From the NCBI GenBank assembly GCA_963281255.1, contig OY725506.1:2151001-2215000 (forward strand): DNA of 64,000 bases, read 5' to 3'. How positions within the stretch are numbered: position 1 is the first letter of the stretch; each line of letters starts with the position of its first letter. The notes beneath the pieces are model-generated. The model was not told the DNA's origin and searched no databases. It was given only the letters and a program-made list of their open reading frames with translations. Of this stretch, positions 1,574-61,266 are shown in pieces. This DNA is from Aphrocallistes beatrix (lineage: Eukaryota > Porifera > Hexactinellida > Sceptrulophora > Aphrocallistidae). The position numbers and the translations under genes are program-made.

Positions 1574-1816
1574 ACAAGCGCGCTTCGGTTGCTTGCGCTG
1601 CGGGGCTGGCGGACACTGTGTCTGACGGAGGCGCCCTTCGGGAGCCTAAGCTCACAATGATTAATTATAAGGTAGAAAACATCTCTAATATGTTCGTGTG
1701 TCTTACTGTCATAATTGTATAATTCGAAAAATTTCTCAATTTCTCAATTTATGATTTTTTTTGATGCGTCATGATGACGTCATAACAGAGTGATGCGTTA
1801 TCATTTTTTGATGATA
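1574..1816 (+). repeat. GC-hairpin repeat copy 1, 5' part
   Basis: Starts CAAGCGCGCTTCG and carries the two adjacent GC-rich hairpins of the family: CGGACAC against GTGTCTG, then GGCGCCC against GGGAGCC. An AT-rich body follows with ATGATGACGTCAT (perfect CRE palindrome). It breaks at TTGATGATA where a pogo-like element (1817-4907) is inserted; the copy resumes at 4910. Confidence 0.75.
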
Positions 1817-1882
1817 CAGTCCACTTCGGAAACCCGGGGCACTTCGGGACCAGAGCTGGGTGCCCAGGTTTTTGAATGTTAA

Positions 1883-3810
1883 GGATACCGCCCTCGAAAA
1901 ACCTTGCCTGGAGTCAAAAAAAACCGGCTATTTTTTAATGCTAATTTTTTATTGCTAATTTCATTGTATTACTGATCGGTCTACCATCTGATAGCACTAT
2001 TTGGACGGTATTTTTTTCATTTTTTGTGAGATAACCCCCTAAAGTTTAGCGTTGATAAAAATTGAAAAATTATTTGAGGTTTTTAACTCATTTACTAATT
2101 AGTTTTTAAATTATTTGATATTTTTTTAATGATATGGACCTTAACATTGTTTTGGCACCTTTGGAGATTAGGATGGGCAAATAAAATCGAAACAAAATAG
2201 CTCTATAAGGGAGTTCATTTATATAATGCTCGTGAAATCGCAAGTTTGATCTCAGATATTTAGCGATCACTGGGTCAGATATAAAATCTGATCGTTTCAG
2301 ATGAAAAAATTGTTCGGATCCGACCATTTGTTCTTGAGATATCGCTTATTATAGGTAAAGTTCGTGCATAATATCCCTCTAAGGTCCCGAAAGAGGCCGA
2401 TGTCATATCTTAAAAACTATTGTAGATATATAATATATTATATCCTTAAATAAAAGGATATATGCAAAAATATATAGGTTCCTCGGAGATTCCTTTGTCA
2501 AAAAATAAACAATTCTCGACTTATCATTGATTTAATTATAATACAAATTCAATGGAGAACTTTGAATCTATTAGAAAATGGCGAATCTAATCATTAAATA
2601 TGTGTCCAAATTTAGCTATTGTGCTAAATAATGAATACAATTGTCGTTAACAATGTGTACAGAAAAATTGGAGAACTTTTGATAGTTATTTTGATAGTTC
2701 TGGCCTTGGACCTCGCACATTGGGTCAGAAACCCCCCATTTAGGGTCCAAAAAGAGATATCTCTCTATCTCTGTAAATATAAGTCCAAATTCTTAGTTCT
2801 CACTTCCTAATATACTTTTTATGAGTGTACATATATGATTGTTTGATAATAATTGCACTACACCCTATGGAATGTTAATTTTTTTCATATGATTTTTTCA
2901 TTTGATGACGTAGCATTTTTCGAAAATCCTAACTTCGAAACTAAAAGTCTTAGACTTTCGTTCTAACTTCCTAATATACTTTTTGGAAGCTTTTTATTCA
3001 TTCTAAACTGATAGATTATACTTCGCAGTGTCAGGAATATGAATTATTATCTACAATTATCTTAAAATATTCTGAGTCAGGGGCCTCAAGGAAATTTGTG
3101 GATTTTCAGGGTACTTTTGCTATTTTTTGTAAATATTTGGTTCTAATATACCTATATCAGCAGTATGTATGCGAATAAATGTCTGTGAATGCTTTTGTTC
3201 ATTATTAATAACTCATTTTACATTCTTCTTTACACCTAAACTTAAAATCTCTATATCTCGGGACTTTAAATTTCAAAATTGACCGTCATAACAGGATTTT
3301 AACTCTAAATTTGTTTAAGATAGAGGTTTGAAAATTCCAAGAGTCGTTCCATATCATTAGGCTATGAACGTATGACCACCATTTTTTTTGAGATATTCTA
3401 ACTCGGTGATTTTATTCCTGATTTCCCTAAAAAACTTACTTTTTTGGCCCTTTTTTCGGACACCGATAAAATTTACAATTTTTGTCATTTTAACTTTCTT
3501 CTGGTCCTATGAAGTTGCAAATATGGTAGACTATCTATGATTCGATTTTGGAAGCATTTGATTCCTTGGTATATCCTTTACAATTCCTTGTGTGCCCAAA
3601 TATCTACCATTAAGATGTGCTAGCGGAAAACGAAAAAAAAACAGACTTTGAGACACTGTATCTTCAAAAACTAGAAATTATAATCAAAAACGGTTTGAAA
3701 TGTGCCTGTATTTCTTGATGGAGATACCTCCCCACGCTTAACATCTCTTATAGCTCTACTTTCATCGTATGCTGTAAGCCAAATCATATGTTTTTTCGAG
3801 GGCGGTATCC
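1883..3810 (+). mobile_element. TTAA-flanked long TIR element, copy 1 (1928 bp)
   Basis: Ends GGATACCGCCCTCGAAAAAC and its inverse GTTTTTTCGAGGGCGGTATCC, each bordered by TTAA (1879-1882, 3811-3814). Removing it rejoins the pogo-like host sequence. TTAA target duplication is typical of piggyBac-like transposons, but no transposase is visible, so the class is inference. Other copies: 11985-12238, 12333-14130, 61269-61425 and 61665 to the window end (reversed). Confidence 0.65.
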
Positions 3811-3945
3811 TTAACCCGAGGATTACTTGGGGTCAAAGGTATAAATAGAAATGACCCAGCTTTCACTTTCATTTTCAGTTTACTTTCAATTAACTTTCAC
3901 TTTCAATTCAACATTCCTGGACGTGCTCGGGTTAAGATGACTCTA

Positions 3946-4909: not shown

Positions 4910-5162
4910 GTTCTCAAATATGGTACTTTGAGATGTATTATTTATAATATGCATATTCTATTAAATATCAGCCTTTTATTACCTAAAATGAGTTATAGCC
5001 GAAAAACTTTTCTAATAATAAAATAGGTTACAATGGCATCATAATTCCATGATGAGTCGACATTTACGTCTGAGGTCAGAACTTAGTGAAGCCATAGCAA
5101 AAAGACTCCAACAATCCAAAAATTAGCTTTCTGTGCCTGACAGTTTTTCAATCAATTCGTTA
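4910..5162 (+). repeat. GC-hairpin repeat copy 1, 3' part
   Basis: Continues the repeat broken at 1816: the body with ATAATTCCATGATGAGTCGA and the terminal block ending CAATCAATTCGTTA. Divergent from the better copy at 27380-27953 but collinear with it. Confidence 0.7.
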
Positions 5163-5165
5163 AAT

Positions 5166-5284
5166 AGTCAACTACGCTTAATCGGGACAACCGCTTTATT
5201 GGGACAAGTCTCCAGGAACAAATTGGTTTTCGCTTAATCGGGACATCCGGGACTAAACTGTCCAGATTAAGCGGAATCACCTGT
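5166..5284. mobile_element. Short pogo-like MITE
   Basis: About 117 bp with imperfect inverted ends (AGTCAACTACGCTTAATCGG against CAGATTAAGCGGAATCACCT) and repeated CGCTTAATCGGGACA internally. Such sequence is common in pogo/Tigger-derived MITEs. Classification is tentative. Confidence 0.45.
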
Positions 5285-5305
5285 ATATATATATATATTT
5301 ATATA

Positions 5306-6970: not shown

Positions 6971-8341
6971 TTATAGTGGGTGGGGACCTAATCGTCGCTT
7001 CTGGTTGTTCACTCGGAATGGTCTTCGCGCGTTCATTGTCTCGGCTATATGCTCTGGAGTTGTAGAAGGCTGGTCTGGCTGTGGCGAGTCTTGCTGGGCA
7101 GCTAGCTGCTCCGATACACTGGCTGGAAGAATCTTGCAGTTATTATTTAGGTGTACCCAATTGTACCGCCCGTTATCCTTATCGAGCTTCACGTTAGGAT
7201 GTTTAACCTCGATTACGCTATAGGGACCGCGATACAAAGGTTCAAGTCCGTCTTCCCTAGTGAAATGCTTGAGCATCACTCTCTGACCTGGAACTGCAAC
7301 AGTCGGAGAGGTTGAAGTATTACTTTCATAGTTGTCCTTCATTGGCACCTGAGCACCTGCGATGTTGTTGTTGGCTTCCTCCCATATGACACGATTCCCT
7401 CTCGGTCGTTCGCGTGTCTGCCCTATCTCAGGGTAAAACTGATCCAAGGGCGTCCTGAGTCTAGTACCGTACATCAGCTCATGGGGCGTAAGCCGTGTGC
7501 TCGTGTTCACAAGCGAGTTTTTGGAAAATGCTACCTGGTGCAGAATGGTTGACCAGTGAGATTTTGGGGGGTTATGTTCGGCTAAGAGACATCGTAGAGT
7601 CTGCTTGATGCTCTCCACAGTCCTCTCGGCTTGACCATCCCCTTGGGGATGATTAGCCGAGGAGTGCCTCTTCTCGATCCCAAGTTGCTCGCAAAGGTCC
7701 CTTACGGCCTTCCCATCCACATTCTTTCCTTGGTCTGTCAACAGGACCCTGGGTATGCCGTGTCTGTAAAACCATCCAGTTTCTAGGGCGTCGCAGATAG
7801 ACTTCGCTGACTGATCTCGCATCGCGATTACCTCCGCGAACTTCGAAAATAGGTCCACAATCACCAACATGTATCGGTACCCGCCTTCTGACCATGGGAG
7901 CGTGGCCACGTCTGCGGAAATTACACTTCTAGGTTCTGGAACCTCCGTTCCGATCGGCTGTAAAGGCTCCCGCTTCCTGCTTGTTCTTTTATTCTCCAAG
8001 CACACTGGACAACTGTTGCAGCACCGTTCTATGTACTTACGCATCCCAGGCCAGAAGAAATGTTGCCTGATATACTGGTAGTTTCTCTCCACCCCCGCGT
8101 GAGTGAGCCTATGGGCGAAATCTGTTATGTCATCCTGCATACGATGGGGCACTATGATGGCCCTCTTCCTGTAAAGCAAACCCTCATCACTAACTCGCAT
8201 CCCCTCTTGGGATCTGAACGGGCCTGAATTTATACGCCCGTATTCCAACAGCTGATCGACGGCACCTTTGACCGCTCTATCGTTCCGCTGCCCTTCCTCG
8301 ATTTTCCTGCCGATCCGCACCACTCCAAGTGTGTAAATCAT
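6971..8341 (-). pseudogene. Gypsy 1 integrase (open 456-codon frame)
   Basis: The longest intact frame in this element. The N-terminal zinc-binding HHCC is complete (HRLTHAG..CCNSCPVC). The catalytic core has the Asp in SADVATLPW, the second Asp in LLTDQGKNV and the Glu in QAERTVESI, the usual D,D35E triad. The C-terminus has the GPY/F motif (RGPYSVIEV) and a WVHLNN block typical of gypsy integrases. The frame itself is unbroken, but it lacks an ATG-defined start and is separated from RNase H by a frame change near 8345-8440, so the polyprotein is not functional. Confidence 0.88.
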
Positions 8342-8344
8342 CCT

Positions 8345-9235
8345 CTCAAAATTCTCGCTCTAGTCGTTGGTACTAAATCAAACTCGCTGGGAGATCTGCT
8401 GAGGTAATCAGCTGCGCCGTTCTCCGCTCCACCCCAGTGTACTATCTCGTAGTTGAAGGATTCAATCTCGCGTGTTTGTTCCTAGGATCCCTCTGCTGAC
8501 GCAACCACACAAGGGGGTTATGGTCGGTAATAATGTTAACCTTCGGGGTAGCTTGGAGATAAACCCTCCATTTGCGCAAGGCTACAATGATCGCCCAAGC
8601 TTCTAATTCCCCTGCGGAATAATCCCGTTGAGCAGAGCTCAGGCTAGACGAGTAGAACCCAATCGGGCGTTTCCGACCGCTGATGTCCGACTGAGATAGC
8701 ACGGCCCCAATTACTTGGTTCGACGCGTCAGTTTCGATAAAAAAGTGCCTGTTCCAATCAGGGAAAGAGAGTGTCCTGAATTCTGATGCTAGACGACTTC
8801 TCAAAGTCTCGAAACTGCTCGCGCATCTGGGCGAACAATGCCAGGGGACGTCCTTGCTTGTTAGCTGATGTAGAGGCTCTGCTAAGAGGGAAACATCCGG
8901 AAGATACTCGCGGCACCATTTTACCAGGCCCATAAATTGCCGAATTTCCTTCCTCGAATCTAGGCCTTGGAAACCCCAAGATCTTCTCTAAGGTCGATGG
9001 GAGTGGCTTCCGTCCTTCATACGAGATTAAGTGACCGAGAAATTCAACCTCCTGATACCCGAACTTGCACTTGCTAGCTCTTAACCGGATTCCTGCCCGT
9101 TCGAAACGCGCAAGGGTCTCGTCTAGGTGGAGTAAATGCGACCTGAAGTCGAGGGAATGTACGCAAGAATCATCGACAAAGGCTTGTACTCCCTGGCATC
9201 CTCTTAACGCTTGTGTACCTAGACGTCTAGCAGAA
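8345..9235 (-). pseudogene. Gypsy 1 reverse transcriptase / RNase H remnant
   Basis: Read on the minus strand: the RT active-site box QAFVDDSC near 9190, then FLGHLISYEGR and the RT connection domain, then RNase H (FFIETDASNQVIGAVLS, YSAGELEAWAIIVALRKW, ITDHNPLVWL). The frame changes at about 8940 and again at about 8445. Everything N-terminal to the FVDD motif is missing. Confidence 0.85.
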
Positions 9236-9905
9236 GTAATAACCGGTGATGAGACTTGAGTATATTATTCAACACCTTATAGCAAGTATAAGATGCGATC
9301 ATGGGTGAAAGGGGACGAAAGACCGGCACAAATTCCTAAGCCCGACTTCAGAAAACCGAAGGTCATGTACACGATTTTCTTCAATAGTAGTGGAATTGTA
9401 CTGCAGTTACCTTGAGAGTGGTAATACTGTAAATGCCACGTTTTTTACAGAGAAAGTGCTCCCAAACTTGATAAAAAATGTAAAAGAGATCCGTCCCAAG
9501 GGTAAAATGAGAGGAATCAAATTATTAATTGATAACGCTAGTTCGTATACAGCCAAGCTCACCAAAGATTTCTTGGAAGCAGAGGGGTTAGATTCACTTC
9601 CCCACCCCCCATACTCACCAGACCTAGCTCCCTGTGATTTTTGGCTGTTCCCCAAGCTCACAATCTACCTTCAAGGCAAGGAATTTGACTCGAGACAAAC
9701 CCTCGGGACTGCCCTTTACCAGTACTTCAAAACTATCCCCGAATAAGAGAACAGGAGTGTGTTTGTAAAGTGGGTGGATCGATTAGAAAAGTGCGTAGCA
9801 GTAGGAAGAGATTACTTCGAGTAAATAATAGGTTAAATCAGATTCTATAGCGTTTGTTTATTATATTATGGCATGACTCGCAATACATTTTGAACGCCCT
9901 AGTAC
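9236..9905 (+). pseudogene. Mariner transposase fragment (C-terminal half)
   Basis: Begins at VITGDET, the first catalytic Asp of mariner transposases, and continues SKYKMRSWVKGDERPAQIP, LLIDNASSYTAK (second Asp) and YSPDLAPCDFWLFPKL (third Asp, the D34D signature). An in-frame TAA at 9744-9746 is followed in the same frame by SVFVKWVDRLEKC..GRDYFE, the normal end of the protein, so this is a nonsense mutation. There is a stop after GDET, where Trp is expected. The N-terminal DNA-binding half is absent because the gypsy fragment abuts it. An inverted-repeat-like end lies near 9880-9905. Confidence 0.88.
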
Positions 9906-10046
9906 ACCTGCAATTAAATTATCAGCAATCTATCACCTAAAATGGCAAGGTTTTTTATGTGCGAAAAAAAAAATTACGTCACAATTTCGTGATGACTCGA
10001 CTTTTCCGTCTATGGGGTCAGAACTCTATGGAGTCATACCCTAAAC
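9906..10046 (+). repeat. GC-hairpin repeat, 3' fragment
   Basis: Matches the end region of the family (AATCTATCACCTAAAATGGC, GATGACTCGACTTTTCCGTC), then is interrupted by the hAT element that starts at 10047. Confidence 0.55.
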
Positions 10047-14495: not shown

Positions 14496-14955
14496 TATAA
14501 GCGCTTCGCCTGATTGTGCTGCACGGCTGGCGGACATTTCGTGATGCCAGAGGCGTCCTTTGGACGCCTAGACTCCCATTTGGTTTTAAACGATATCACT
14601 CGAAAAATTACAAATTTGCGAATTTTTAAACTTTTGATGAGTAATAATACGTCATAACAGAGTGAAGATGAATAATATTTTGATGATAGTTGGATCATAT
14701 TTGAGATGTATTAATATACACATTCTATTAAAATTTCAGTCATCTATCACCTAGAATAGCTGAGTTATAGTCGAAGAACTGTAATTTCTAAATATAAAAA
14801 GGTGACAATGACGTCATAATTCCATGATGGGTCGACAATTTCGTCTTAGGTCAGAAATTAGTACCTTAGAACCATAGCTAAAAGACTCCCACATGCCAAA
14901 AATCAGTATTTTGTGCCCTGGTAGTTTATTCAATCAATTCGTTACAGCACTGACA
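14496..14955 (+). repeat. GC-hairpin repeat copy 2
   Basis: Starts near AAGCGCTTCGCCTGATTGTG. The second hairpin is perfect in this copy but with changed bases (GGCGTCC against GGACGCC instead of GGCGCCC against GGGCGCC), a compensatory pair. The body carries ACGTCATAACAGAGTGA and the 3' block ending CAATCAATTCGTTACA. Confidence 0.75.
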
Positions 14956-21869: not shown

Positions 21870-23357
21870 CAGTCGAACCTGCTATAATGGCCAATCTATA
21901 AAACGGTCACGTCTATAGCGGTCACCAATGAACAGTCCCGTCCGAAATTCCATAATATTGAACCTGTGTATAGCGGTCACCTGCTCAACGAGGCCAGCGG
22001 CCACCCGTGTGTAGTCCATTACAGGATCTGTTACGAACGATAAACAAGTTTCATGTCATTACTTCAAGTAATGGAACTACATGTAGTAACTATGTTTCAT
22101 TCTAGATAGGGTTTAAAGCGCTTGTAGTGTCTCAATAAAAAAATATTAATTGGCCGACTAAACTTTAGATTAGAGCCAAATATTGAAATGACTGGCATAT
22201 GTATTTGTTTTTGACCCAGATACGTATATGAAAGCTATGCTTCTTCCAATCTATTTCATTCATTGTCAGTACATTGTATCTCATGGCAGTTACCTGTCTA
22301 TAACGGTCACTACCTCTCTATAACGGTCATCATCTATGTACTGTATACAATATACTGGGTGTTAATTAAAGTTTTGGCTACACTTCTCATTGAACCTTAG
22401 GTATGATTAATAACGTTGCTTGTTATATATTAGAACTAGAGTCGTTAACATCTCGACTCGTATTTGTTCTCGCGCAGGATGAGACCCAATTGTCTTTAAT
22501 GATAACTATATAATGACCTCAATCAAGTAAACAATTTGGAGCACGTTCCCTTTCCCTCCTCAAGGAGGAGCTTGCTCCAGGACCCGCACCTGAAATTTAA
22601 TGTGCAAAACGGGAGTGCGGTCTTTTAATGCTAATTGTATACCATTTTGTAAATTGACAAGTGTATTGATCATTCAATTCTCCTGCATGTATTTATCCTT
22701 ACTATTAAAACTCGATTAATGTATATTTATTTATATATATATATATATAATTTGTGCTATTCTCCTACAATTCTAACATTCTTGTCTACCCATAACATAT
22801 TTGATAAGACTTTATATAAGTCGAAAGCTATTTTGTGATATCACTTGCTAATAAACCTTTCTTTCTATTGAACCGCTCAATTCTATATCGCTATATATAC
22901 GCCGATCCCTAGCAGTTAGTCGCATGAACGAACCTGCAACTGACGATGAGTCCACTCGACTGGACCTCGCTTCCCCCTCCGATGTAGAAATGCTCCAGCA
23001 TGGCAAATTCGCATCCTCCGACCAGTATTCTGGCATTGCTAATATTGAACCTGTGTATAGCGGTCACCTGCTCAACGCGGCCATTTTTTGTAGTCCCTTA
23101 CTGACCCTTAAACTGTGTATAATGGCTATCACCTGTCTATAACGGCCATCACCTTTATATGTGTTTATTACAGGACATGTTACGAACGATAAACAAGTTT
23201 CATGTAATTACTTCAAGTAATGGAACTAGGTACATGTAGTAACCATGTTCCATTCTAGATAGGGTTAAGACAATCTTCATTGTATATAACGGTCACCTAT
23301 GTATAACGGCCAATTTTGTCCAGTCCCTTGGGTGGCCGTTATATACAGGTTCTACTG
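21870..23357. mobile_element. Pogo/Tigger element 1, non-coding, 1488 bp
   Basis: Ends CAGTCGAACCTGCTATAATG and inverse CGTTATATACAGGTTCTACTG with TA on each side. The interior has many CTGTxTATAACGGTCA words and a direct repeat of about 200 bp (21953-22110 with 23036-23270, sharing ACGAACGATAAACAAGTTTC). No transposase; the + frame at 22924-23142 has no clear homology. Confidence 0.75.
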
Positions 23358-23359
23358 TA

Positions 23360-23861
23360 TATATATATATCTGTAACGAATTGATTGAAGAAACTGCCAG
23401 GCACAGAAAGCTGATTTTTGGCATGTGAGAGTCTATTGGCTATGGCTCCAGTAAGTTCTGAGCTCAGACGAAAATGTCGACTCATCATCGAATTATGACA
23501 TCATTATCACCTTTTTATAATTAGAAATTTCAGTTTATCGACCATAACTCAGCCATTTTAGGTGATAGAAGGCTGAAATTTTAATAGAATGTGTATATGA
23601 ATATACCTCACATCTAATTATTATCAAAAAATGATTTCTCATCATTTTATTATGACGTCATCATTACGCATCAAAATTTTAAAAATTGTCAAATTTGGGG
23701 ATTTTTCGTGCGATATCGAATATAACAGTAGGACCGACGTATTCAGAGATGTTATCCCCTTATAATTCAACAATGTGACCCAGGCACACGCAGGGCGCCT
23801 CCGGTGGGCATAAAGTTTCGCCAGCCTCGCAGCGCAAGCAAGCGAAGCGCGCTTGTTAATA
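23360..23861 (-). repeat. GC-hairpin repeat copy 3 (reversed)
   Basis: The reverse complement runs CAAGCGCGCTTCGCTTGCTT..CGTTACAGATATATATA. The GC-rich hairpins are degraded here but the CRE block (ATGACGTCATCATTACGC) and the CATGTGAGAGTC end block are clear. Inserted between two pogo pieces. Confidence 0.75.
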
Positions 23862-24285: not shown

Positions 24286-25090
24286 TACTTTCGTTGGTTT
24301 GGATTGAGATGAATTATGCATGAATATATTGCTTAATTTTAAAAATTTACCCGGGTACCACGCGTGTCACAGGTTCAGAACCGCTGCTCTGCATGATTAT
24401 TAATAGGATTTCCTGATTTCGGAATTGCTCGAATTATACAGGCGCCCCAAATATTTAAGTTTGGATTAAAAAATTCCTCAAACATGCCAAAGTGGCATGG
24501 GCTTAATTTTGATCAAGGAGACCCCCAATAATTCAAAATCACCAAAAAGTTCATACTTCTCAAATGCATTTGTTGACACCTAAATCCATCATGTGGTCTT
24601 GGAGTATTAATTGCATTTTTTCATTTTGAGTAACAATTTAGTAAGCTAACAAAACAAGAATCAAATATTATGTACAGGGTGTTTCATTGATTACACACAA
24701 AAGTAAATTGCTTTCATTTCATTTGTGATTGAGATAATTTAGTTATTTTGGCTGCTTTTGAAAGGAAATCCTTTGACATTATGAAAAACAATGAAGCAAA
24801 TCGTTGGAATAAAAGTAAATTATTTCAAAACATCATTAATATGGGATAACTCATTTCCGATTTAGTCATTATGGGCGGGTAAACCTTAGAAGTGTTGAGT
24901 AATCTTGAATAGGACTGATTTTTATGGTAGAATTCCAAATAACTTGCATGCTTTCCCAATACAATCACACGTTCTTACATGAGGTGGTCCGAACACAAAT
25001 TAATATAACAGGCCTACTTATACTTGATTATATTTTTGTATAAATATTTATATAATAGATAAAAATTTATGCAAAAATATAATCAAGTAT
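24286..25090. other. Intergenic DNA with transposon end fragments
   Basis: 24372-24394 (GTCACAGGTTCAGAACCGCTG) is the right end of a hAT element whose left end I cannot find. 24676-24700 (TACAGGGTGTTTCATTGA) resembles a mariner terminus. No gene. Confidence 0.4.
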
Positions 25091-25092
25091 TA

Positions 25093-25262
25093 TTTGGTTA
25101 ACCAAATTATTCGGTAGACCAAATATTCGGTTGACCAAATATTCGGTTGACCAAATTATTCGGTTGACCAAATTATTCGGTTAACCAAATTATTCGGTTT
25201 GACCATTATTCGGTTAACCAAATTATTTGGTCTGACCATTATTCGGTAAAATGGTATTTGGT
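25093..25262 (+). repeat. Minisatellite of ATTCGGTTGACCAAAT units
   Basis: About ten 15-17 bp units, variants of CCAAATTATTCGGTTGA, some with GGTTAACC. Ends in TATTTGGTTGAAGCGG. Located 270 bp downstream of the PDI stop codon. Confidence 0.85.
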
Positions 25263-27379: not shown

Positions 27380-27874
27380 CACAAGCGCGCTTCGCGCTTG
27401 CTTGCGCTGCGCGGCTGACGGACACTTCGTGTCCGCCGGAGGCTCCCTTCGGTCGCCTGGAGTCACATTGGTTAATTATAAGGGAGATAACATCTCTAAA
27501 TATGTCTGTTCTACTGTGCTAATCGATATCAATCGAAAAATCACCAAATTTGTCAATTTTAAAATTTTTGATGCGTAATGATGACGTCATAACAAAGTGA
27601 TGAGTCATCATTTTTGATGAAAGTCGCATCATATGTGAGGTATGTTAGTATACAGATTCTATTAAAATTTCAGCCTTCTATCTCCTATAATGGCTGAGTT
27701 ATGCCCGAATGACTGCGTTGCTTAACTTTTAAAAATGTGACAATGACGTCATAATTCCATGATGAGTCGACATTTCGCTCTGAACTCAGAACTTACTGGA
27801 GCCATAGCCAAAAGACTCCCACATGCCAAAAATCAGCCTTCTGCGCCCGGCAGTTTCTTCAATCAATTCGTTAC

Positions 27875-27931
<57 letters not shown>

Positions 27932-27953
27932 CATCGAGTTTTAATAGTAAGGA
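27380..27953 (+). repeat. GC-hairpin repeat copy 4, best complete copy
   Basis: Runs from CACAAGCGCGCTTCGCGCTT to CATCGAGTTTTAATAGTAAGG. In order: a GC-rich double hairpin (27405-27460; first stem CGGACAC/GTGTCCG perfect), an AT-rich body with TGACGTCA twice and TGAGTCA once, a CAATCAATTCGTTACAG block, a TA microsatellite and the CGAGTTTTAATAG end. The 20-bp word ATTTATCGCAGTATTATGTA precedes (27360-27379) and follows (27954-27973) the element. No coding frame. Confidence 0.85.
27877..27927. repeat. TA microsatellite inside hairpin repeat
   Basis: About 25 uninterrupted TA units between the conserved 3' block and the terminal CGAGTTTTAATAG. Confidence 0.95.
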
Positions 27954-40749: not shown

Positions 40750-40904
40750 CACTAACTGGACAAAAGTATTTGTACACTACAAGATTCGAAATCTTCACAT
40801 TCGAATTAGTAATAGTTGAAGATTTCTAATACATTGCTCAACTCAATGGGTAAAATTATCAACCTGTGGCGCAAGAGGTAGTACATCAACATAATGTATC
40901 CTTA

Positions 40905-41560
40905 CTATTAAAACTCGATTAATGTTTGTTTGTTTGTGAATATATATCTGTAACGAAATGATTGAAGAAACTGCAAGGCACAGAAAGCTGATTTTTGGCA
41001 TGTGGCTCTTTTGGCTATGGCTCCACTAAGTTATGAGTTCAGAGCAAAACACCGACTCATCATGGAATTATGACGTCATTTTAACATTTTTAAAAGTTAA
41101 GCAATAAAGTTATTCGAGCATAACTCAGTCATTATAGGTGACAAGCGCGCTTCGCTTGCTTGCGTAAATAACATCTCTAAATACGTCTGTCCTATTGTTA
41201 TAATCGACATCGCACGAAAAATCACCAAATATATCAATTTATAAATTTTGATGAGTAATGATGACGTCATAACAGTGATGAGTCAACACTTTTTGATGAT
41301 AGTTGCATCATATGTGAGGTATGCTAGTATACAGATTATATTAAAATTTCAGCCTTCTATCTCCCATAATAGCTGAGTTATGCTCGAATAACTGTATTGT
41401 TTAACTTTTAAAAATGTGACTATGACGTCATAATTCCATGATGAGTCGACATTTTGCTCTGAACTCAGAACTTAGTGGAGCCATAGCCAAAAGACTCCCA
41501 CATGCCTAAATCAGCTTTCTGTGCCCGGCAGTTTCTTCAATCAATTCGTTGCAGAGATAT
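40905..41560. repeat. GC-hairpin repeat, two copies head to head
   Basis: 40905-41140 is a reversed 3' part (starting CCTTACTATTAAAACTCGAT, the inverse of the family end). 41141-41560 is a forward copy starting ACAAGCGCGCTTCGCTTGC, with the paired hairpins deleted, running to CAATCAATTCGTTGCAG. Confidence 0.7.
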
Positions 41561-41565
41561 ATATA

Positions 41566-42045
41566 CACTACGTACCCTACCAAAAGTATTCGTACACCTC
41601 AATATTTCCCATTAAAATAGTACTAAATGCGTCTATTACTGAACTGTCATGCAGTTAAACTAGACGAGATACAGTATATTTGATTTTAGATTCATATTCT
41701 ACGCATTTGAATTATCTATTTTAGAGTTTTCAAATCAATTAAGTTTTAACTATGCCGAAATTTATCATCCTGTGCTACCCTGTGTCACCTATCACCATCT
41801 GCTACAATGGTTGAGACTCTAGAAAAGTGGTACATGGTGGCACAGGTCGGTAATTTTAACCTTGGCAATTAGCAATTGATTTGAAACTTCGAATATAGGT
41901 AATTCAAATGCGTAGAATACGAATCTGAAATCAAATATACTATATCTCTTATAATTTAACTGCATGATCATTCTTTAATATTGCCATTTTAGTACTATAT
42001 TAATGGGAAATATTGAGGTGTACGAATACTTTTGGTAGGGCAGTA
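41566..42045. mobile_element. Intact Tc1-like MITE, 480 bp
   Basis: CCCTACCAAAAGTATTCGTA with inverse at the right end. Left TA present; the right side runs into a TA repeat. Nearly identical to 20047-20932 without its SINE. Confidence 0.85.
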
Positions 42046-43043: not shown

Positions 43044-43385
43044 GGACCGCCAAACGTGGAGTTTCAACTATAACTCCATTTTCGGTGATAGAAGGTTGAA
43101 ATTTTAATAGAATATTTATATTAGTATCTCACATATGATACACTATCATCCAAAAATGACGACTCATCACTCTGTTATGACGTCATCATTACTCATCAAA
43201 AATTTAAAAAGTGAAAAATTTGATGATTTTTCGAGTGATATCGATTTTAACAGTAAGTCAGACGTATTTAGAGATGTTATCTACTTATTATTAATCAATG
43301 TGAGCCCAAACGCCCAAAGGGCGCCTCCGGCGGACACAATGTGTCCGCCAGCTGCAGCGCAAGCAAGCGACGCGCGGTTGTTATT
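43044..43385 (-). repeat. GC-hairpin repeat copy (reversed)
   Basis: The reverse complement shows both hairpins almost perfect: stem GGCGGACAC/GTGTCCGCC and GGCGCCC/GGGCGTT. Followed by the CRE block (ATGACGTCATCATTACTC on the + strand). Confidence 0.8.
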
Positions 43386-45223: not shown

Positions 45224-45730
45224 CTGTTCTCGGTAACTGTAATTTAATACACTTAATTACGTCACTTATTGAAGAGCCCGGTTTGATCATTTGGGGTATT
45301 CTGTGAATAAGATTGGCGATTGGAGATTTTTAATACGATATAAATGATCATAGATAGCTTTGACAATAAATAGATCTAACAAAACATTACTACTGTTACT
45401 GTGTAAAAGATATGCCAATGTGTCAATTATAGGTTGAGTAATCAGAAACAAACTAGTAACAGAGATAACAGTGCAAGTAGTCTTTGGATTCTGAATAGCA
45501 TAGCTACTACAATTATCCGGTATAAGAAGTATGTTCGGCAACGATACAATATATGACTTATGTTTTCTAAGAAGTTACTATAGGAATCAAAAGAACTAAT
45601 TACAATCCTTTATGATTCAGTTACTCGTTCAGAATTTAGTGGAGCCATAGCCAAAATACTCCCACATGACAAAAACCAGCATTCTGTGCTTGGCAGTTTC
45701 CAATTCGTCACAAATATATTTATATATATA
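45224..45730. other. Unassigned intronic DNA with hairpin-repeat fragment
   Basis: 45635-45715 matches the 3' block of the GC-hairpin family (GTGGAGCCATAGCCAAAATA, TTCCAATTCGTCACA). The rest has no identified feature. Confidence 0.5.
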
Positions 45731-45732
45731 TA

Positions 45733-46837
45733 CTCTGGACAAAAGTACGAGAAATTCCCCCTCACTGCGGGAACAAGCTATCGGGTTATACAAGGGAGGG
45801 AGTGGTGTCTCATATATTTCTCAGATTTTGAATGTTAATTGCTCTTCTGCTCATTACATAATACAAAGATGGAAATCTACTGGATCAGCGAAAAATCTTG
45901 CGAGAGTTGGATGTCCACAATTGCTTACACAACGCTGTAACACCAGTTTAAGTCGATTATTAAAACTAATCGAACTCAGTTATTTAACGATGGAAAAGAT
46001 ACGGATGTTTCTCAGAAAACAATATCCCGAAATCTTCATGAGATGTGCTATTTGGCTCGTAGGGCGTCCAAAAAGCCTATAATTTCAAGTGCCAATCAGC
46101 AAAAGAGGTCAAGCTTTTTTTATAAACATATTTCTTGATGAATTAGCGATTGGAATAGAGTTATATTTTCCGATGAATCAAAATATAATTTATTCGGCTC
46201 TGATGGTCACAAAACAGTTTGGAGACGAAAATCGGAAATATTTTACTCGAATGCACCCAAAAACTGTCACATGTGGTGGTGGTTCGGTAATGCTTTGGAG
46301 GTATATAACTTTTGGGAGATTAGGCCCATTAATCAAAGTTAATGAAAGATTAAATTCTCGAAATTATATCTCTTAAATTTTTGAGCTTTTCCTACAGTTC
46401 TGGAGAAAATTCACAAGAGGAAAGAGAGACAGTTACTACATGCAGGACAATGCACCTTGCCACAAGGGAAAAGTAGATACATAATGGTTTGGCAAAAAGA
46501 AAGTCCTGATGCTGGACTGGCTCCCTCAGTATTCGGATTGAAATCCGATCGAATATATTTTTGATTGTCTTCTAAAGCGAGTACGAGAAAGAGGAAAACA
46601 GCCGAACTCACTCAAATAATTAAGTCTGGGTCTCACGGAGGAATGGAACAATCTCCCTGTAGAATTTGTGAATCAAAAAGCAAAAGGGAAAGGCTACTAA
46701 ATATTGACAATACAATTAATTTAATTGGATTTATAGAATTAGACTAAACCTACTATTGTGGCTTAATAGTCAATCACTTTTTTTTTACTAGATCAGACTG
46801 TATTAATTTTTATTTCAAATACTTTGGTCTGCTTAGA
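45733..46837 (+). pseudogene. Tc1-type transposon with broken transposase
   Basis: + strand: LREQAIGLYKGGSGVSYISQ and INVNCSSAH-like HTH, WKSTGSAKNLARVGCPQ (GRPR-like hinge), then in a shifted frame FSDESKYNLFGSDGHK (first Asp), GGGSVMLWRYITFG, MQDNAPCHKG (second Asp) and LPQYSDLNPIEYIFD (Glu), ending LTEEWNNLPVEFVNQ. At least three frame changes and stops at 46080, 46375 and 46480. The ends TGGACAAAAGTA and, inverted, TACTTTGGTCTG suggest the limits given, to within a few bases. Confidence 0.85.
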
Positions 46838-49253: not shown

Positions 49254-50263
49254 CATAGGCGCCCAACTTTCTAAATTGTCGGGATTTTTATGTGTTTCCC
49301 TAGGACTTTTGTGTATGATGTATCAATTATCAGATTTTGTATAAATTGAAAATTTAGTATCTAAGTATTCTACGATGGCTTGCGCGCCTCATTAAAAAAA
49401 AAACAAGCTCTCCGGTGTGACTCCCTCAATTGCTACACTTTGGGCCAGTAAACCAGCGATTGAGCAATCTCCAGCAATCCAGCAATCTCTATAAGAACTT
49501 CCATGATGTGGCTCTACAGAGCATTTTTGTGCGGTACCCTACTGAGGAACTGGCTTCTTTGCAAGAGATTGAAGAGGCGTTGTGTACTCCTTGGGCAACT
49601 GCTTCTGTGAGTAACATTTTTGAGCGTTACAAGGCAGACCTCTCAGATGGTCTCACCAAAGACATATTTGGCTACCAGATCTCGAGTTTGCACAACATGG
49701 TGGCGATTGCCGGGATGGACATGGCCAAACTGTCAGTCGAAAGTCTCGCTGTTGTCTATGACTCCAATGATGCGCTAGCTGTCATTACGAAGGATGCCCA
49801 CACAATGCTTCGCATCTATTTCGTGTCTCCGGCGACTACTTGTAGTCCAGAACGTTCATTTTCCGCTCTCAAGCGGATTAAGACGTATATTCGTACTACC
49901 ATGACTGAGGCGATACTGAACCACTGTGCGACTTCGCAAATACACAAGTCAATGAGCAAGACCATCAATATACAAAAGACAGTGGACACCTTCATCACCC
50001 GATCAACGGCCAGGCTCAATCTCTTCGGCCTCCCAAACAAACAAGTTAATCCTGGGCCGCAATTGATTAGAACAGTCTTTACATCTATTTAGAATTTTTC
50101 AAAAAACATGTTATTTATTTTTTAAAACTATACGTATATTGATTCCATACATTTTTCTCTCCAATAATGTGTAATTGTGCAAGTTAAGATGTCATACATT
50201 CTCTAAAATTCGGGATGGGAAAACATACGTCCCCATCCCGAAACAGCTAGTTGGGCGCCTATG
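49254..50263 (+). mobile_element. hAT-related element, 1010 bp
   Basis: Perfect 15-bp inverted ends CATAGGCGCCCAACT (49254-49268, inverse at 50249-50263) around the transposase fragment. The flanks (CCATCCTT, CTGATGCT) do not form a clear 8-bp duplication. Confidence 0.75.
49430..50092 (+). CDS. hAT transposase C-terminal region, 220-codon open frame
   Basis: An unbroken frame without a convincing ATG start. ALQSIFVRYPTEELASLQEI, SNIFERYKADLSDGL and the dimerisation domain YFVSPATTCSPERSFSALKR..YIRTTMTEAILNHCA, the hAT_C signature with conserved E-R-x-F-S. The tail RSTARLNLFGLPNK is not recognised. The N-terminal finger and the catalytic Asp region are absent, so it is likely a deletion derivative. 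The intact reading frame inside the TIRs is notable next to its broken neighbours. Confidence 0.75.
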   Translation: MLHFGPVNQRLSNLQQSSNLYKNFHDVALQSIFVRYPTEELASLQEIEEALCTPWATASVSNIFERYKADLSDGLTKDIFGYQISSLHNMVAIAGMDMAKLSVESLAVVYDSNDALAVITKDAHTMLRIYFVSPATTCSPERSFSALKRIKTYIRTTMTEAILNHCATSQIHKSMSKTINIQKTVDTFITRSTARLNLFGLPNKQVNPGPQLIRTVFTSI

Positions 50264-54929: not shown

Positions 54930-56235
54930 CCCCGATTGGGTGCACTCTTGGTTTTCTCGTGCAATTTTACTCAATTCTTGCCTCCTCTTTACCGTTGTTT
55001 CGAGATACTGACTGGCTGACCCTGTAACTTTTGTTGGAGTATGACCAGTGCTAATGAGCATATTGATTGGTGATCTTGGCTGATGGTCAAATGGAAACAT
55101 GGGTAGAGATATTTTTCCTCGCGCGTTGTCCAGATTATTGCCGTAGAAAGTAATCTCTTGCAACAACGATGGCCAGGAACCCTTTTCTAGGTGGCTTTCG
55201 AGCATCAAGCAACGTATCACTTGTTTGACGAAGTCGATATGTCTTTCGGTCATCCCATCGGACTCCGGGTGCTACGGTGTGGTGTGACATTTAGTAAAGT
55301 CATGGTAGAGTTCGTGCACCGCTAACCCATCCACATTCTTCCCCTGATCTGTGCATAATATTTGGTACGCCATGTCCACGGTAGACCCATCCTTCCATGA
55401 ATGTGTTAACGATGGATGTGGTGGTCTGGGGCCTTATTCATTAACAAAACTTAAGTTTTGCTTAACTTAAAACTTAAGTATAACTTTAAGCAAAATCTAA
55501 GTATTTGCTTAACTTTAAGCAAAATCTAAGTACCTATTTGCTTAACTTGAGAAACAGCTAAGAATTTGCTTGCTTTAAAAAAATGTCAAGAATTTAATAC
55601 TTTTGAATTATCCAAATACTGTCATCACTATCAAGCTCCATATTCTACCCGTTATTCACCAATTTCCATTTAAATCATTTTAATACGTCATGGATATATT
55701 TAGACAATTAGATTATTTACGCATCTCAATCACTCTTCGAAAACATTTGTATACTAATAATATTCTAGCAGTTATTCGCCAACTTTCAATTTAATACCAC
55801 AATGATAGAACTGACAAAACACCCCTAGCGCGTCAATGATTCATACAAAATAAATAAATAAAACTACCTACAAGCTTTATACTAATTTATAGACCGAAAC
55901 ACGATTTACAAGATTTTAAGAGTTAAGTCAACCCCAAACATGACTTAAGTTAAAAACTAAATATTTACTTAAGTTTAAGCAAATACTTAGTTTTTGCTTA
56001 AAGTTAAGCAAATACTTAGATTTTGCTTAAGTTTTACTTAGTGAATACCAACTTAAGCAAAACAAGTTTAACTTGAGTTTTACTTAAGTTTAAGCGAATA
56101 CTTAGTTTTTGCTTAAAGTTAAGCAAAACTTAAGTTAAGAAGTTTAGTGAATAGGGCCCCTGGTCTTTCAACGGGATTGCTTTCGCGTATTGAGAAAAGA
56201 GATCAACTATGAGTAAGAAGTACCTGTAGCCACCA
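54930..56235 (-). pseudogene. Gypsy 3 integrase fragment, split by a MITE
   Basis: Minus strand: NGGYRYFLLIVDLFSQYAKA and IPLKDQ (56160-56235), then after the MITE TTSIVNTF, ILCTDQGKNVDGLAVHE (catalytic Asp), HPESDGMTERHIDFVKQV (catalytic Glu) and CLMLESHLEKGSWPSLLQEI down to GHTPTKVTGSASQYL. Different from gypsy 1 and 2 (GMTER rather than GQAER). Stops at 55275 and frame changes. No RT or LTR belonging to it is visible. Confidence 0.8.
55428..56160. mobile_element. 733-bp palindromic MITE with 6-bp target duplication
   Basis: Ends GGGGCCTTATTCATTAAC and inverse TTTAGTGAATAGGGCCCC; flanks TGGTCT on both sides (55422-55427, 56161-56166). Internal arms consist of AACTTAAGT / TTTGCTTAA words. 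Removing it restores the integrase reading IPLKDQTTTS. The ends resemble those at 16980-17040. Confidence 0.85.
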
Positions 56236-56740: not shown

Positions 56741-57297
56741 TCAATGATTCAACATTTCAAACACTGGAACGTAATAAATGCCGTCGTAATTGGAGCAGAA
56801 GTTGGCTACACTATACATATTTGGCATACTGCTAAGAAAAATGTACGTGTGGATGAATAAATTATGAATTACTAGTAGGAAAAAATGTATGAAATATTGT
56901 AGGTAATAGAAAATAAACTAACAATGATACTTATCCTATATTATACACTGCATTTTATCGTATTCAAATTTATTTCAAACAGAATGGTTTGTTTACAAAA
57001 TAGACTTGAAGTAATCCATGGTAAGGCAAAATTCGTACCGTGAATAGGCTATAGTTACGTAGGCTGTGCTTCAAATTGATTCCATATACATATTTACATT
57101 ACAACTATCTATACGCATAAAAATGGGAGGTACGAATATTGTTAGTAGGGAGTGTAGAATTGCAGAGAAACAATTCACACATCACATTATATGGAAATTC
57201 CAAATGTCCACGCTCTTAACTTCTTTATTATCAGTTTATATATACATATTTAAATAGTTGGTACGTCGGTACATCAATTGAGAATAAAGAATCTTAC
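56741..57297. other. Intronic DNA next to exon 1
   Basis: 56940-57090 is an inverted partner of 54180-54330. 57128-57157 (TACGAATATTGTTAGTAGGG) resembles a Tc1 MITE end. No gene. Confidence 0.45.
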
Positions 57298-58411
57298 CGG
57301 TTAACACCTTAACAGGTGCAGAATTCCAGTCCTCAGGAGTTTGCTGGCTTTTTAAATCCAAAGGTAGTATGCCATCGAGAAATTTTTTAGTGAAATTCAT
57401 CAAAGATTCTTCAGTTAGATCAGTCTTATCTTGCTTAAATCGTTGGACTTCTTCTGATAAAATAACTGCACGAACACAAGGGATATCATTTTGGACTATT
57501 CCAAAAAAATCCAAAATTGAATGATACTCATCATTACTGGAATCAACTGTAATTACTAGAATGTCGCCACGATATAATTTCGCAATTTTCATAAGAATAT
57601 CAACTGTAACGCTCGTTTCTTTCTCGCCTTTAGGTGAAAAAAAAATCAAATGCTTATTAATTGACCCATCAAAAAATCTCTCACTTAATTTTTGAGAGAA
57701 TTCAGATACTAATTGAAATTGATGAATTTTGATAAATCGTGAAATGTTTTCAACGTTATCTTCACCATCGTAAACAACTTGCTTTTCGTCATAATTTTTA
57801 TAGATTACAATACTGGACTCACTAATATTCGATGGAAAGAGTTCCGGATTTAAAACTAAGCCAAAATCAACATTATCAAAACTACGAGCTACAGATAGGA
57901 AGGTTGTTGCTTCTGCTTCACTTGAAAAAAAGCCCACAATAACTATACTAACCGTTTCAATAAAATGTTCCAACTCTTCATGGTCTTCAATCATCACTGC
58001 AGGAGGACCTGTTTTTTTCAATAACCAGTTTACAATACCTTCAGCTTTTCTAGGTCCATCATAGTCAACAGGTGAACTATGCTGAAAAAATTTAAGAGAA
58101 GGATAGCCAGATATTTTGTAAGATGCAGCTAAATCCTTTTCAACAGTAGCATCGACTTTGGCTAGGCGAATTTCAGAATCACTCTCTAACAATAATTTCG
58201 CAGCAGCCCTATACTCAGGTTCTAAAGCCTGACAATGTCCACACCAGGGTGCATAAAACTCCACAAGGATAAAATTATGAGAATCAATTATATCTTTGAA
58301 GTTATTATCAGTCAAAATAAGAATATTGTCATCCGCTGGGAGTTCAGCGGAAGAAAAGGACGAAATAAATACTAGAAAACAGATGAACTTTGTTGACATC
58401 GATAAAATCAT
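57298..58411 (-). CDS. P4HB: Protein disulfide isomerase, coding exon 1 (signal peptide, a, b, b' domains)
   Basis: First coding exon of an ER oxidoreductase that forms, breaks and rearranges protein disulfides. The frame encodes residues 1-371 plus one base of codon 372. Residues 1-22 are a hydrophobic signal peptide ending SSFSSA. The first thioredoxin (a) domain carries [11 protein letters not shown] with the redox motif CGHC at 57-60 and the cis-proline loop SGYPSLKFF near 101-109. Two redox-inactive thioredoxin folds (b, b') follow, then the linker and the PVKVLTG start of the a' domain. The ATG at 58411 has A at -3; an in-frame ATG four codons later (58399) has T at -3, so I prefer the first. 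The exon ends at a consensus donor, ACCG|GTAAGA (phase 1). Joined to the other exons the protein is 496 aa, close to vertebrate P4HB (about 508). P4HB-type PDI is also the beta subunit of prolyl 4-hydroxylase; that role here is inferred from family only. Confidence 0.96.
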
Positions 58412-58620
58412 ACTGAAGCTTTATATTAGAGGTCAGAAAACTATGTAGTAAAGAAAAAGAAAAATTCAAATGTTATAGAAATGATGGTACGGTGCTAGGT
58501 TTGTTTAACCGATTTGAGGACTAGGTTATATCAATGCCGTCGAGGAGGTTAGGAGGTTTACTGTTGTCACAACATAAAATATGGGAATTTTGAAAATATA
58601 TACCATATACCAGGGCTGTA
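58412..58620 (-). promoter_or_regulatory. Presumed 5' UTR and promoter region of PDI
   Basis: The sequence upstream of the PDI start. I see no clear TATA box at a sensible distance and no ER-stress element of the CCAAT-N9-CCACG form, so the start site cannot be placed. A non-coding 5' exon further upstream is possible. Confidence 0.3.
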
Positions 58621-59095
58621 TAAACTCCTATTGAGTTGGTAAAACTAATTTTCTCTGGACCAACTCATTCAATTCATCCAGTTTCATGCAACCTACTCAT
58701 TCAACTCATTTATAATATCCTTCTTTTTTTATTTTAATTAACACATTAAAAATCAATAAATAAGTAATATGCTAATGTAATGAAATAATCAAGTTAAAAT
58801 GAGTCAAAATGAATAAGCTTTTAACCCAAACTCAGAAATGTATATTGATTTAGATGAGATAAATAATCGCATATAAACGAAAATCTTCCTTGCCAAGGCA
58901 AAGAATATGATTGATTAATAACTAAAATGAGTTGGTTTGAATAAAATACTTTCAAAATGAGTAGGTTCAACCAACTCATTTTTAAAATGAGCTAAACTCG
59001 TTTAACACATTCCAGTGGGCTATCAACTCTTTCTCATTCAACTTATTTAGAAAAATTAGTTGATTTGCTAGATAAAACTCTGTTACATATGTATA
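58621..59095. repeat. AACTCATT-rich repeat, possible hAT MITE
   Basis: ACCAACTCATT/ AATGAGTTGG words recur across 58640-59060. A related piece lies at 25280-25340. The ends CAGGGCTGTATAAACTCC (58612) and AGATAAAACTCTG (59090) may be termini but flanks do not match. Confidence 0.4.
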
Positions 59096-60714
59096 GAGTA
59101 TAGCTTAATCAAAATAAGGCCTGGTATTAAATGTATCATAGATGAAGTAGAGGATGCTAATTTAAAATCTTAAAAATCTATCTTGGCTTATAAGCATTTT
59201 AATGTCCTTAAGAAATCCATTTCCTGATATAATCCACTCCTAAATCAAATAACGTATTTGAATTCAGCTTCATCAAATTTAGATATAATCAGAACAAAAT
59301 ATTTAGGTATATTTGTAACAAACAATGGTTAGAATGCACGAAAATATATGTTGGTGATAGCTCGCTAGCATCTCTCTATCCTTTAGTTCTACTCTTGATC
59401 TCTTAATTGGCATTATAAGTAGCCGACTAATATTTCTCTAGCATCGATTTCTTTCGACAAAGTACTTTTCGTGCGCGCTAAGTTGTGTGAACTTCTTTTG
59501 CCCGGAAAATATAGTGTTAGCTGCGATGTCGTCACTCTTCCCGACAGAACTGCTTCTATAGTTGGTCTTAACCACTAATAATCAAGAAATGAATTGAGAA
59601 TACAGAGTTACAATATATAGTAAATTATTTCAGTAGAAGGATATATGAAACAGGGTAATGAGTCCTTTAAATAATTCTACGTCTTAAGACCTTGCCACAT
59701 GTTTTCCAGTTATCTCGAGTTAGGGCCATTAAATATGATGGAGATTAGTGACACAAAGTGGCAGAAGTACTTAGTAGATTAGTTCTACTTGAGAATAAGT
59801 ATTTGTGCTGAAAGCTTCAAAAATTAGTAATTTAGACGCGTGTCGTTTAAGAACCTGAAATTAAAAATAGAATATATCATAATATATATCATAATGAAAT
59901 TCCAGCAATTTGATATATATGTTGTCCATATTTGGAGAATCTTTTGGTTGTCCGTGCCTAGCAACGACCAGGAATTTTTCACATTCCTGGCCGATGATAG
60001 GAACCCGCAGCCAAAGGCAGGGGCGCAGAACTTTTCGAAATCTAAGGGTAATTTTGGCGTTCTAGCTCAGCCTTAAAATTTGTATTGCGTCTATGGGCCA
60101 TCTTCGATTCCAGGGGGGGCTTGTGCCCCCCCAGCCCCCCCAGGTTCAGCGCGCCAATGGCCAAAGGTACAATTACAAGGCTCTAAGTGGCGAAATATTG
60201 ACAATGAAATTCTAAAAATCGAGATTAATGTTTCGAACCCATTTAGGGATCTAAAAATGATAAAAAGGACTTTTAAACAAATTTTGATAAAAACTATATG
60301 CTCATTGTAAAGGCCAAAATTAAGTTAAGATTACAATGAATTTTCTAGATATCTTATCTATTATGGTCGGCCATTCCTGATAACAAATAAATGTTGACTT
60401 CTACACCGATTTTTTTTGATTTTTTTCAGTGCGAATTGAATCGCAAGTTATCTACAAAATTGGATGAATAAATCATGAAATATGGTCAAAATTTAAATTT
60501 TTGAAATTGATTAACTTTACAGAAAAATGTCAGACACAATATTAAATATATCCCTTTAGAAGCTTTCCAAATGTTGTCATCAAAGGGTGATCTAACCCCG
60601 GAAGAGACAACTTTTTGAAATTTTTAATTGGTAAAATTTAGGCTGAAAAACGAGCAATATTATTTTTTGAGAAATTTCGATATTATTTTTATAATTCTCA
60701 TTTCATTCAAAACA
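59096..60714. other. Upstream intergenic DNA, mostly unassigned
   Basis: 59640-59740 resembles the decayed mariner at 26450. 59899-60000 is one arm of the palindrome at 16401-16610 and 60150-60290 matches 16700-16800. 60110-60150 is a C-rich tract. No gene. Confidence 0.45.
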
Positions 60715-61012
60715 ATCACGCTTCATTTGCTTGCGGCTCGCGGGTGACGGACACTTTGTGACCTTCGGAGGCGCGCGTGGGGTTTTATTGATTAATTATA
60801 AAGAAGATATCTCTGAATGCATCTGTTTACTGTTGTAATCGATATCACTCGAAAAATCACCAAATTTGTCAATTTTACAATTTTGAAAGCATAATGATGA
60901 CGTCATAACCGCATGATGAGTCATCGTTTTTGATAATAGGTGTATCATGTTTGAGATTTATTCATATACATGTTTCCATTAATAAAATTTCAGCCTTCGA
61001 TCACCCAAATTT
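60715..61012 (+). repeat. GC-hairpin repeat, degraded copy
   Basis: CACGCTTCATTTGCTTGCGG, CGGACACTTTGTGACC, then ATGATGACGTCATAACCGCA and GATGAGTCATCG. Truncated where the next copy begins. Confidence 0.7.
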
Positions 61013-61266
61013 CGAACAACAAGCGCGGTTCGCTTGCTTATGCTACGCGGCTGGCAGACACTTTGTATCCGCCGGAGGCGCCCTTTGGGCGCCTGTGGTC
61101 ACATTCATTAATTATAAGGGAGATGACATCTCTAAATACGTCTGTCTTGCTGTAATAATCGATATCGCAAGAAAAATCACCGAATTAAAAATTTTAATGC
61201 GTAATGAGGACGTCATAACAGAGTGTTGAGTCATCATTTTTTGATGATAGTTGTATCATATTTGAA
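61013..61266 (+). repeat. GC-hairpin repeat, tandem second copy
   Basis: Starts ACAAGCGCGGTTCGCTTGCT. The second hairpin is perfect (AGGCGCCC/GGGCGCCT). The body runs to TTTGATGATAGTTGTATCAT, then is cut by a TTAA-family end at 61269. Confidence 0.8.

Follow-up and report, generated by a model that had tools for sequence, protein, structure and literature searches.

A short repeat of about 540 bp is dispersed through a 64,000-base stretch of the genome of the hexactinellid sponge Aphrocallistes beatrix (GCA_963281255.1, contig OY725506.1, positions 2,151,001 to 2,215,000). This whole stretch is called the window below. The repeat is very probably (at about 95%) a non-autonomous Helitron, in which a sequence resembling the first 500 bp of a 9.5-kb Helitron is joined to the 3' terminator module of that Helitron. 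It appears to be mobilised by a full-length Helitron of the same genome. This makes it a new family of a well-known kind, possibly one that already has a name, and neither a new RNA nor a new class of element. A first-pass annotation, made from the letters of the window alone, had described the repeat without recognising its class; it is its ends, the A and T that flank it and a partner with a RepHel protein that assign it to the Helitrons.

That annotation was right about a dispersed repeat, which is present far above chance. With up to 3 mismatches allowed, its 18-mer occurs 6 times in the window, compared to 0.00 in shuffles; exact occurrences there number only two. In the host genome, which for all counts means 100.5 Mb in 28 contigs, the 18-mer has 8,817 matches at up to 2 mismatches, against 0 for the reversed pattern. 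Searching with the element using nhmmer gives 13 stretches in the window, or 3,876 bp (6.1%). The same search gives 117 stretches in a sample of 262,020 bases, consisting of the window and 20 fetched loci; these loci were chosen around known copies, so this density is not a genome average. Over the aligned positions of 41 near-complete sampled copies, median divergence from the consensus is 6.7% (range 2.9-18.4%). Both ends are present in 17 sampled copies.

The element has to be read in the other direction. The copies had been said to begin with CAAGCGCGCTTCGCTTGC; this is in fact the 3' end, and both strands carry some of the listed copies. If copies are aligned, the former start is one fixed end, and a second fixed end is found past a variable (AT)n tract. 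In the original sense this second end reads ATTAATCGAGTTTTAATAGTAAGGA, and it has 5,988 matches in the genome at up to 2 mismatches. On the opposite strand the element is therefore 5'-TCCTTACTATTAAAACTCGATTAAT-(AT)n-body-hairpin-hairpin-GCAAGCAAGCGAAGCGCGCTTG-3', inserted between an A and a T.

Both ends are well defined. TC is found in 27 of 28 sampled 5' ends, and the base before these 27 is A in 25 cases and G in 2. At the other side, CTTG is found in 66 of 77 sampled 3' ends, with T as the next base in 64 and A in 2. Exact ends, counted over the whole genome, give the same picture: A precedes 3,349 of 3,520 5' ends (another base precedes 171), and T follows 3,421 of 3,476 3' ends (another base follows 55).

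Reconstruction of an empty site succeeded at one site only, among the 17 copies with both ends. The copy at L023:2894-3420 sits inside an older, inverted copy. Its joined flanks come to 24 bases with three base differences, the same length as the uninterrupted consensus, which means that no target bases were duplicated or lost there. Terminal inverted repeats are lacking: if the outer 150 bases of the two ends are compared, exact inverted matches reach at most 7 bases in the autonomous element and 6 in the short consensus, and shuffles do equally well. A TC start, an A/T target, no duplication and no inverted repeats are the marks of a Helitron.

The first-pass annotation had proposed a search for an autonomous partner with the same ends, and a candidate is found at C2:3994039-4003543 (L029/L041), with a length of 9,505 bp. 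It starts with TCCTTACTATTAAAACTCGAT after an A (5' end at L029:640) and finishes with GCAAGCAAGCGAAGCGCGCTTG before a T. Its 3' end, at L041 1644, carries the same GC-rich module and CTTG. Alignment of ten pieces from other copies stops at L041 1634-1648, and a different repeat starts at 1645; further pieces leave the alignment earlier, at 1501 or before.

The repeat had been thought to have no coding frame. The family does have a coding member, since the partner carries an open frame for a protein of 1,958 aa, in which a Pfam scan finds PIF1, Helitron_like_N and Pif1 2B domains. Residues 174-1645 align with residues 29-1494 of the 1,496 of Helraiser (7lcc), at 1,036 bits. Helraiser H593/H595 and Y727/Y731, as numbered in the Helraiser report (PMC4778049), align with partner H713/H715 and Y848/Y852, so that the HUH histidines and both catalytic tyrosines are kept. 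An autonomous member with RepHel (HUH nuclease, two tyrosines and PIF1-type helicase) is what is expected of the Helitron superfamily, and so are autonomous and non-autonomous copies with common ends.

Other members of the partner's Helitron group agree. Sequence of the short element is present in 11 out of 11 upstream regions (10 fetched ones and L029), in the same place and direction, if only partially in several of them (shortest in L031, broken in L035). The 5' terminus is found in 9 of these regions, 8 times after A and once after CTTG; it was not found within the fetched stretch in L033 and L036. For comparison of the 3' ends there are, apart from L042 and L043, 15 stretches that were selected around such ends and fetched. 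CTTG followed by T is present in L041, L049-L052, L057, L044, L045, L047 and L048. Deviant ends are CTTC in L053, CATG in L046 and CTTG before C in L054, and the fetched stretches of L055 and L056 have no intact 3' end.

The genome gives 106 matches to Helitron_like_N, of which many are fragmentary. Fragments at C20:2109754-2110096 lie some 41 kb ahead of the window's first base. A segment of around 1.6 kb, approximately C2:4001692-4003315, stands between the RepHel frame of L029/L041 and their 3' modules. It occurs in some autonomous copies but not in L044-L048, its longest frame is 89 codons, and it could be captured DNA.

The copies that had been listed in the window were found within 17 bases of their given starts. 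All copies and fragments are as follows.

27382..27953, minus strand: complete short element between A and T, running from 5'-TC at 27953 to CTTG-3' at 27382, with (AT)n close to its 5' end
27382..27475, minus strand: 3' terminator module of this complete copy, with stem GGCGACC/GGGAGCC (tandem G.A), stem GGCGGACAC/GTGTCCGTC and terminal CAAGCGCG/CGCGCTTG
1575..1818, minus strand: 3' part of a copy, hairpins decayed, fold z 0.07
14501..14949, minus strand: copy without TC end, stem 2 GGCGTCC/GGACGCC, of the old T-A-pair subfamily
23356..23855, plus strand: body and 3' end of a copy, where the (TA)n on the 5' side passes into other sequence ending in CAGTAGAACCTGTATATAACGGCC
22696..22720, plus strand: exact 5' terminus TCCTTACTATTAAAACTCGATTAAT followed by (AT)n, which may or may not belong to the copy at 23356-23855
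40899..41145, plus strand: 5' part of a copy, TC end after A
41142..41567, minus strand: copy with 3' tip, CTTG at 41142, hairpins deleted (as the first-pass annotation had seen)
43061..43380, plus strand: 3' part of a copy, with perfect stem GGCGGACAC/GTGTCCGCC (43287-43380)
60714..61008, minus strand: diverged copy, 3' part (nhmmer match)
61020..61286, minus strand: 3' part of a copy, perfect stem GGCGCCC/GGGCGCC
4945..5165, minus strand: internal fragment of the element (nhmmer match)
9902..10045, minus strand: weak internal fragment, E 2.6e-9
45625..45737, minus strand: internal fragment, 5' side (nhmmer match)
61483..61638, plus strand: weak match to an internal part, E 1.5e-4, perhaps due to chance or to another family

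The window also holds other features. Tandem arrays are found at 25089-25247 and 55446-56132, with units of 17-33 bp (ATTATTCGGTTGACCAA) and about 29 bp. Retroelement frames lie at 6971-8987 on the minus strand, with rve and Integrase_H2C2 in 6971-8359. There is a fragment of a hAT dimerisation domain at 49421-50092 (plus strand), and an exon with a thioredoxin domain, like that of a disulfide isomerase, at 57236-58420 (minus strand).

How the short form relates to the autonomous one can be read from their alignment. The short consensus aligns with the first 511 bases of the partner at 91%, and with the partner's last 148 bases at 87%. About 135 bases of the short element are covered by both matches, so that the partner has terminator-like sequence in three places: towards its 5' side, immediately inside the 3' end, and at the end itself. 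The internal module just inside the 3' end is 85% like the terminal one over 65 bases, and a degenerate module is found inside the 5' region at L029 about 1046-1150. The simplest account would be that the short form arose by loss of the Helitron's middle between two copies of the terminator module, the imperfect internal one towards the 5' side and the true one of the 3' end, perhaps more than once.

A tree was made of 50 element bodies, 41 of them short and 9 from the 11 autonomous regions; L031 and L035 have too little sequence. One branch, supported at 100/99, has autonomous copies on either side. The short or autonomous label changes at least 7 times on this tree, 2 of these changes being forced by starred branches, and 37 out of 500 shuffles need no more. 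Support is weak for most inner branches (31 of 47 are open). Taken together, the tree suggests repeated derivation of short forms. A tentative generalisation is that this lineage may hold multi-hairpin terminator copies internally, from which passengers could be made repeatedly, by recombination or by early stopping. If true, the internal copies would account for short and autonomous forms standing together in two deep branches.

It is also conceivable, if rather unlikely, that no deletion was involved, and that the short form comes from premature termination at an internal terminator copy near the 5' side of the Helitron. The degenerate module inside the autonomous 5' region fits with this. 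Helraiser from which the hairpin or right end has been deleted can, according to its report, stop at internal sites, including CTTG (PMC4778049). However, the last 60 bases of the short consensus are closer to the true 3' end than to the internal copy of L029. That internal copy also lacks the terminal CGAAGCGCGCTTG, which may be a matter of later decay.

Several observations weigh against a passenger Helitron as described here. The canonical CTRR of Helitron1 is in none of the 77 sampled 3' ends. Nor does a hairpin stand at the canonical distance of 10-12 nt from the 3' end: an outer stem reaches the tip, and the strongest one is about 33 nt inside of it. L030, a second open Helitron frame, has no short-element sequence in the corresponding place. 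The ten upstream regions were selected by their match to L029, and therefore do not sample Helitrons at random. Two pairs of stem 2 are broken in the commonest subfamily, which means that not every hairpin can be strictly required. Finally, it is homology that points to the direct-repeat origin of the short form, and the common ends that point to movement in trans.

The 3' end is the reason why the family is placed in the Helitron superfamily, and not in canonical Helitron1. CTTG-3' ends arise in experiments with Helraiser, and are said in that report to occur in maize Helitrons (PMC4778049), so CTTG instead of CTRR is within known variation. L030 was itself considered as partner, and was set aside: the sole nearby end of a short element is about 0.87 kb upstream of the frame, in the opposite direction, and belongs to a neighbouring copy. 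Its protein is that of a Helitron, with an OTU domain at the C-terminus.

Among known systems a close comparison is with Helraiser, or Helibat1, from bats. This element is described as having 5'-TC, A/T insertion, a GC-rich palindrome at the 3' side and very abundant non-autonomous HelibatN copies (PMC4778049). The sponge family has the same four features, and the partner's RepHel is homologous over nearly all of Helraiser. There are also differences. The 3' end is CTTG here and CTAG in Helraiser. The sponge element has two or three hairpins, one of which reaches the tip, where Helraiser has a single palindrome of 19 bp, 11 nt from the end. With 1,958 aa against 1,496 aa, the L029 protein is also the longer one.

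A second comparison is with the Helentrons and their derivatives, HINE and DINE-1, in the Helitron2 branch. These derivatives are described as rolling-circle elements with internal deletions, high copy number, an internal microsatellite and a tendency to cluster (PMC4067079), and the sponge family is like them in all these respects. The OTU domain of the L030 protein could also be taken as a sign of this branch. Yet the target here is A/T and not a T-rich T/T site, the ends are TC and CTTG with no inverted repeat between them, and Pfam reports no endonuclease domain in the two RepHel proteins scanned. Given also the near full-length alignment with Helraiser, membership of the Helentron branch is improbable. 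FoHeli, a Helitron2 of Fusarium, is likewise described as a rolling-circle element with hairpins at its ends (PMC5148889). That report gives it asymmetric terminal inverted repeats and other end sequences; such repeats are not seen here.

The hairpins themselves had been the main subject of the first-pass annotation, which saw paired stems that covary between copies, and offered a structured RNA or a DNA recognition site for a trans-acting transposase as explanations. The stems were partly as described. The first, GGCGGACAC/GTGTCCGCC, is perfect in one window copy (43287-43380) only; it has one mismatch at 27382, and has decayed at 1575, 14501, 23762, 61020 and 60714. The second is indeed GGCGTCC/GGACGCC at 14501 and perfect at 61020.

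For covariation a set of 64 module sequences was used, of which 63 are distinct. The set contains 62 of 76 sampled modules, the autonomous 3' end and, as a manual addition, the window copy at 14501; sampled modules with more than 2 missing positions were left out. Of the cells, 87.9% pair, where shuffles give 87.8% (as high in 229 of 500), and there are 24 further pair types, against 23.7. Pairs changed on both sides number 6, compared to 3.5 in shuffles (29/500). Cells changed on both sides come to 10, where shuffles have 4.2 (4/500 as high) and slid controls reach 7-11. The covariation score is 0.062 with a shuffled mean of 0.058 (41/500 as high), and six slid versions of the structure score 0.019-0.047. 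In short, no general excess of compensatory changes was found in the 63 distinct copies.

Five of the ten doubly changed cells are one and the same pair of stem 2, from C-G to T-A, in 5 of 63 distinct rows. The change is confined to one old subfamily, which includes the window copy at 14501, and is probably a single inherited change. What remains of the proposed covariation is thus this one pair. It is unpaired in 38 of 63 rows, and the neighbouring pair in 43, chiefly because stem 2 of the commonest subfamily, GGCGACC/GGGAGCC, has two adjacent G.A mismatches in its middle. Tandem G.A pairs can be stable in DNA. Variability is 0.084 in stem columns and 0.104 in other columns of the module. Eight module sequences were folded as DNA, with z from -2.9 to +0.2. 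Six of them beat their shuffles (z -1.8 to -2.9), and two of the six folded window copies have no advantage over theirs (z 0.22 and 0.07).

This leaves very little room for a structured RNA, for example a ribozyme or small RNA, that is carried along by the repeat. In its favour one could cite a GC-rich module within an AT-rich genome, the six sequences that fold well, the double change in stem 2, and counts of doubly changed cells and a covariation score above those of shuffles, the score also exceeding all six slid versions. But pairing and pair types equal the shuffles, half of the doubly changed cells are one pair, and slid controls do as well on such cells. The commonest subfamily has two positions in stem 2 that are not Watson-Crick, and Rfam gives no match in the window at gathering thresholds. 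In addition, the module lies exactly at the 3' end of a Helitron, and the autonomous copy has it too. Short, non-coding and present in thousands of copies, the repeat might suggest a miniature inverted-repeat transposable element (MITE), or another element with terminal inverted repeats that depends on a cut-and-paste transposase, and the comparable DINE-1 was formerly described as a MITE (PMC2374699), but with no more inverted repeat in the outer 150 bases than shuffles have, no target duplication at the one reconstructed site and asymmetric ends that are common to a RepHel element, this idea can practically be discarded.

The hairpins are most likely a rolling-circle terminator that works in single-stranded DNA, by analogy with Helraiser. 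There, the 3' hairpin is reported to be the terminator, and its deletion leads to read-through (PMC4778049). On this analogy, the RepHel protein would nick a strand at the 5' TC, and its unwinding would peel away single-stranded DNA. Copying would halt at the GC-rich hairpins, followed by cleavage after CTTG. The resulting circle would then insert between an A and a T elsewhere. The hairpins would thus mark the end of the element as folded DNA, and not as RNA. Of the two explanations first offered, the DNA signal has fared better: the anatomy supports it, in that the module forms a Helitron 3' end that an autonomous Helitron of this genome has as well, and movement in trans is what those common ends suggest.

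Some copies stand head to tail. Junctions in which CTTG runs directly into TCCTT number 168 in the genome at up to 2 mismatches (for example L012:4178-5250 and L024:5318-6410). Among the matches listed for the 171 5' ends without a preceding A, a hand count gives 18 after T, 9 after C and the rest after G. The A/T rule explains such junctions, because the A ahead of an element and the element's own first T together make a target. By a rough estimate there are some 6,000 ends among around 10 million AT sites, so only a few junctions would arise by chance. Element ends therefore seem to be favoured targets, with segmental duplication as an alternative. Tandem copies as products of one circle were rejected for two pairs. 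Their members are 92% and 91% identical, which is below the identity of either to the consensus, and this argues for separate insertions. One Helitron inserted right against another has also been described in bats (PMC4778049). At C1:1718064-1718307, five 5' ends with the same orientation follow each other at intervals of 40-60 bases, in what looks like a short tandem repetition of the 5' tip.

The (AT)n tract needs some care. Read in the original sense, the element seems to run into (AT)n like a short interspersed nuclear element (SINE); this was rejected, as a fixed 25-base terminus lies beyond the tract. Of 45 sampled termini of this kind, 19 appeared without the usual element body upstream. 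A second element was considered for these. Several could be re-read as elements inserted into (AT)n, and a few others are truncated or inverted neighbours, which settles some of the 19 and not all. The sequence beside (AT)n in several of them presumably represents Tc1/mariner-type ends. Similarly, the (AT)n by the 5' end often adjoins what we take to be Tc1/mariner- or pogo-like ends (23300-23360, and loci among L013-L024), and the end CAGTAGAACCTGTATATAACGGCC beside the copy at 23356..23855 looks to us like a Tc1/mariner-pogo terminal repeat. TA is the target of elements of these types, and the tract may serve them as a landing site.

A repeat that seemed to belong to no class can now be assigned as the passenger of a Helitron, with a candidate driver and with its direction corrected. 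The first-pass annotation had itself named the absence of any excess of paired substitutions in a large alignment, or identity to a described Helitron family, as outcomes that would speak against its reading, and both have largely come about. There is a caution in this: hairpins that seem to covary in a handful of copies show no general covariation in 63. The family is ordinary in kind, and its compound 3' end is of some interest. Its thousands of copies, its compound terminator and a candidate driver whose frame is open make it a possible system for studying how Helitron ends are recognised and where passengers come from.

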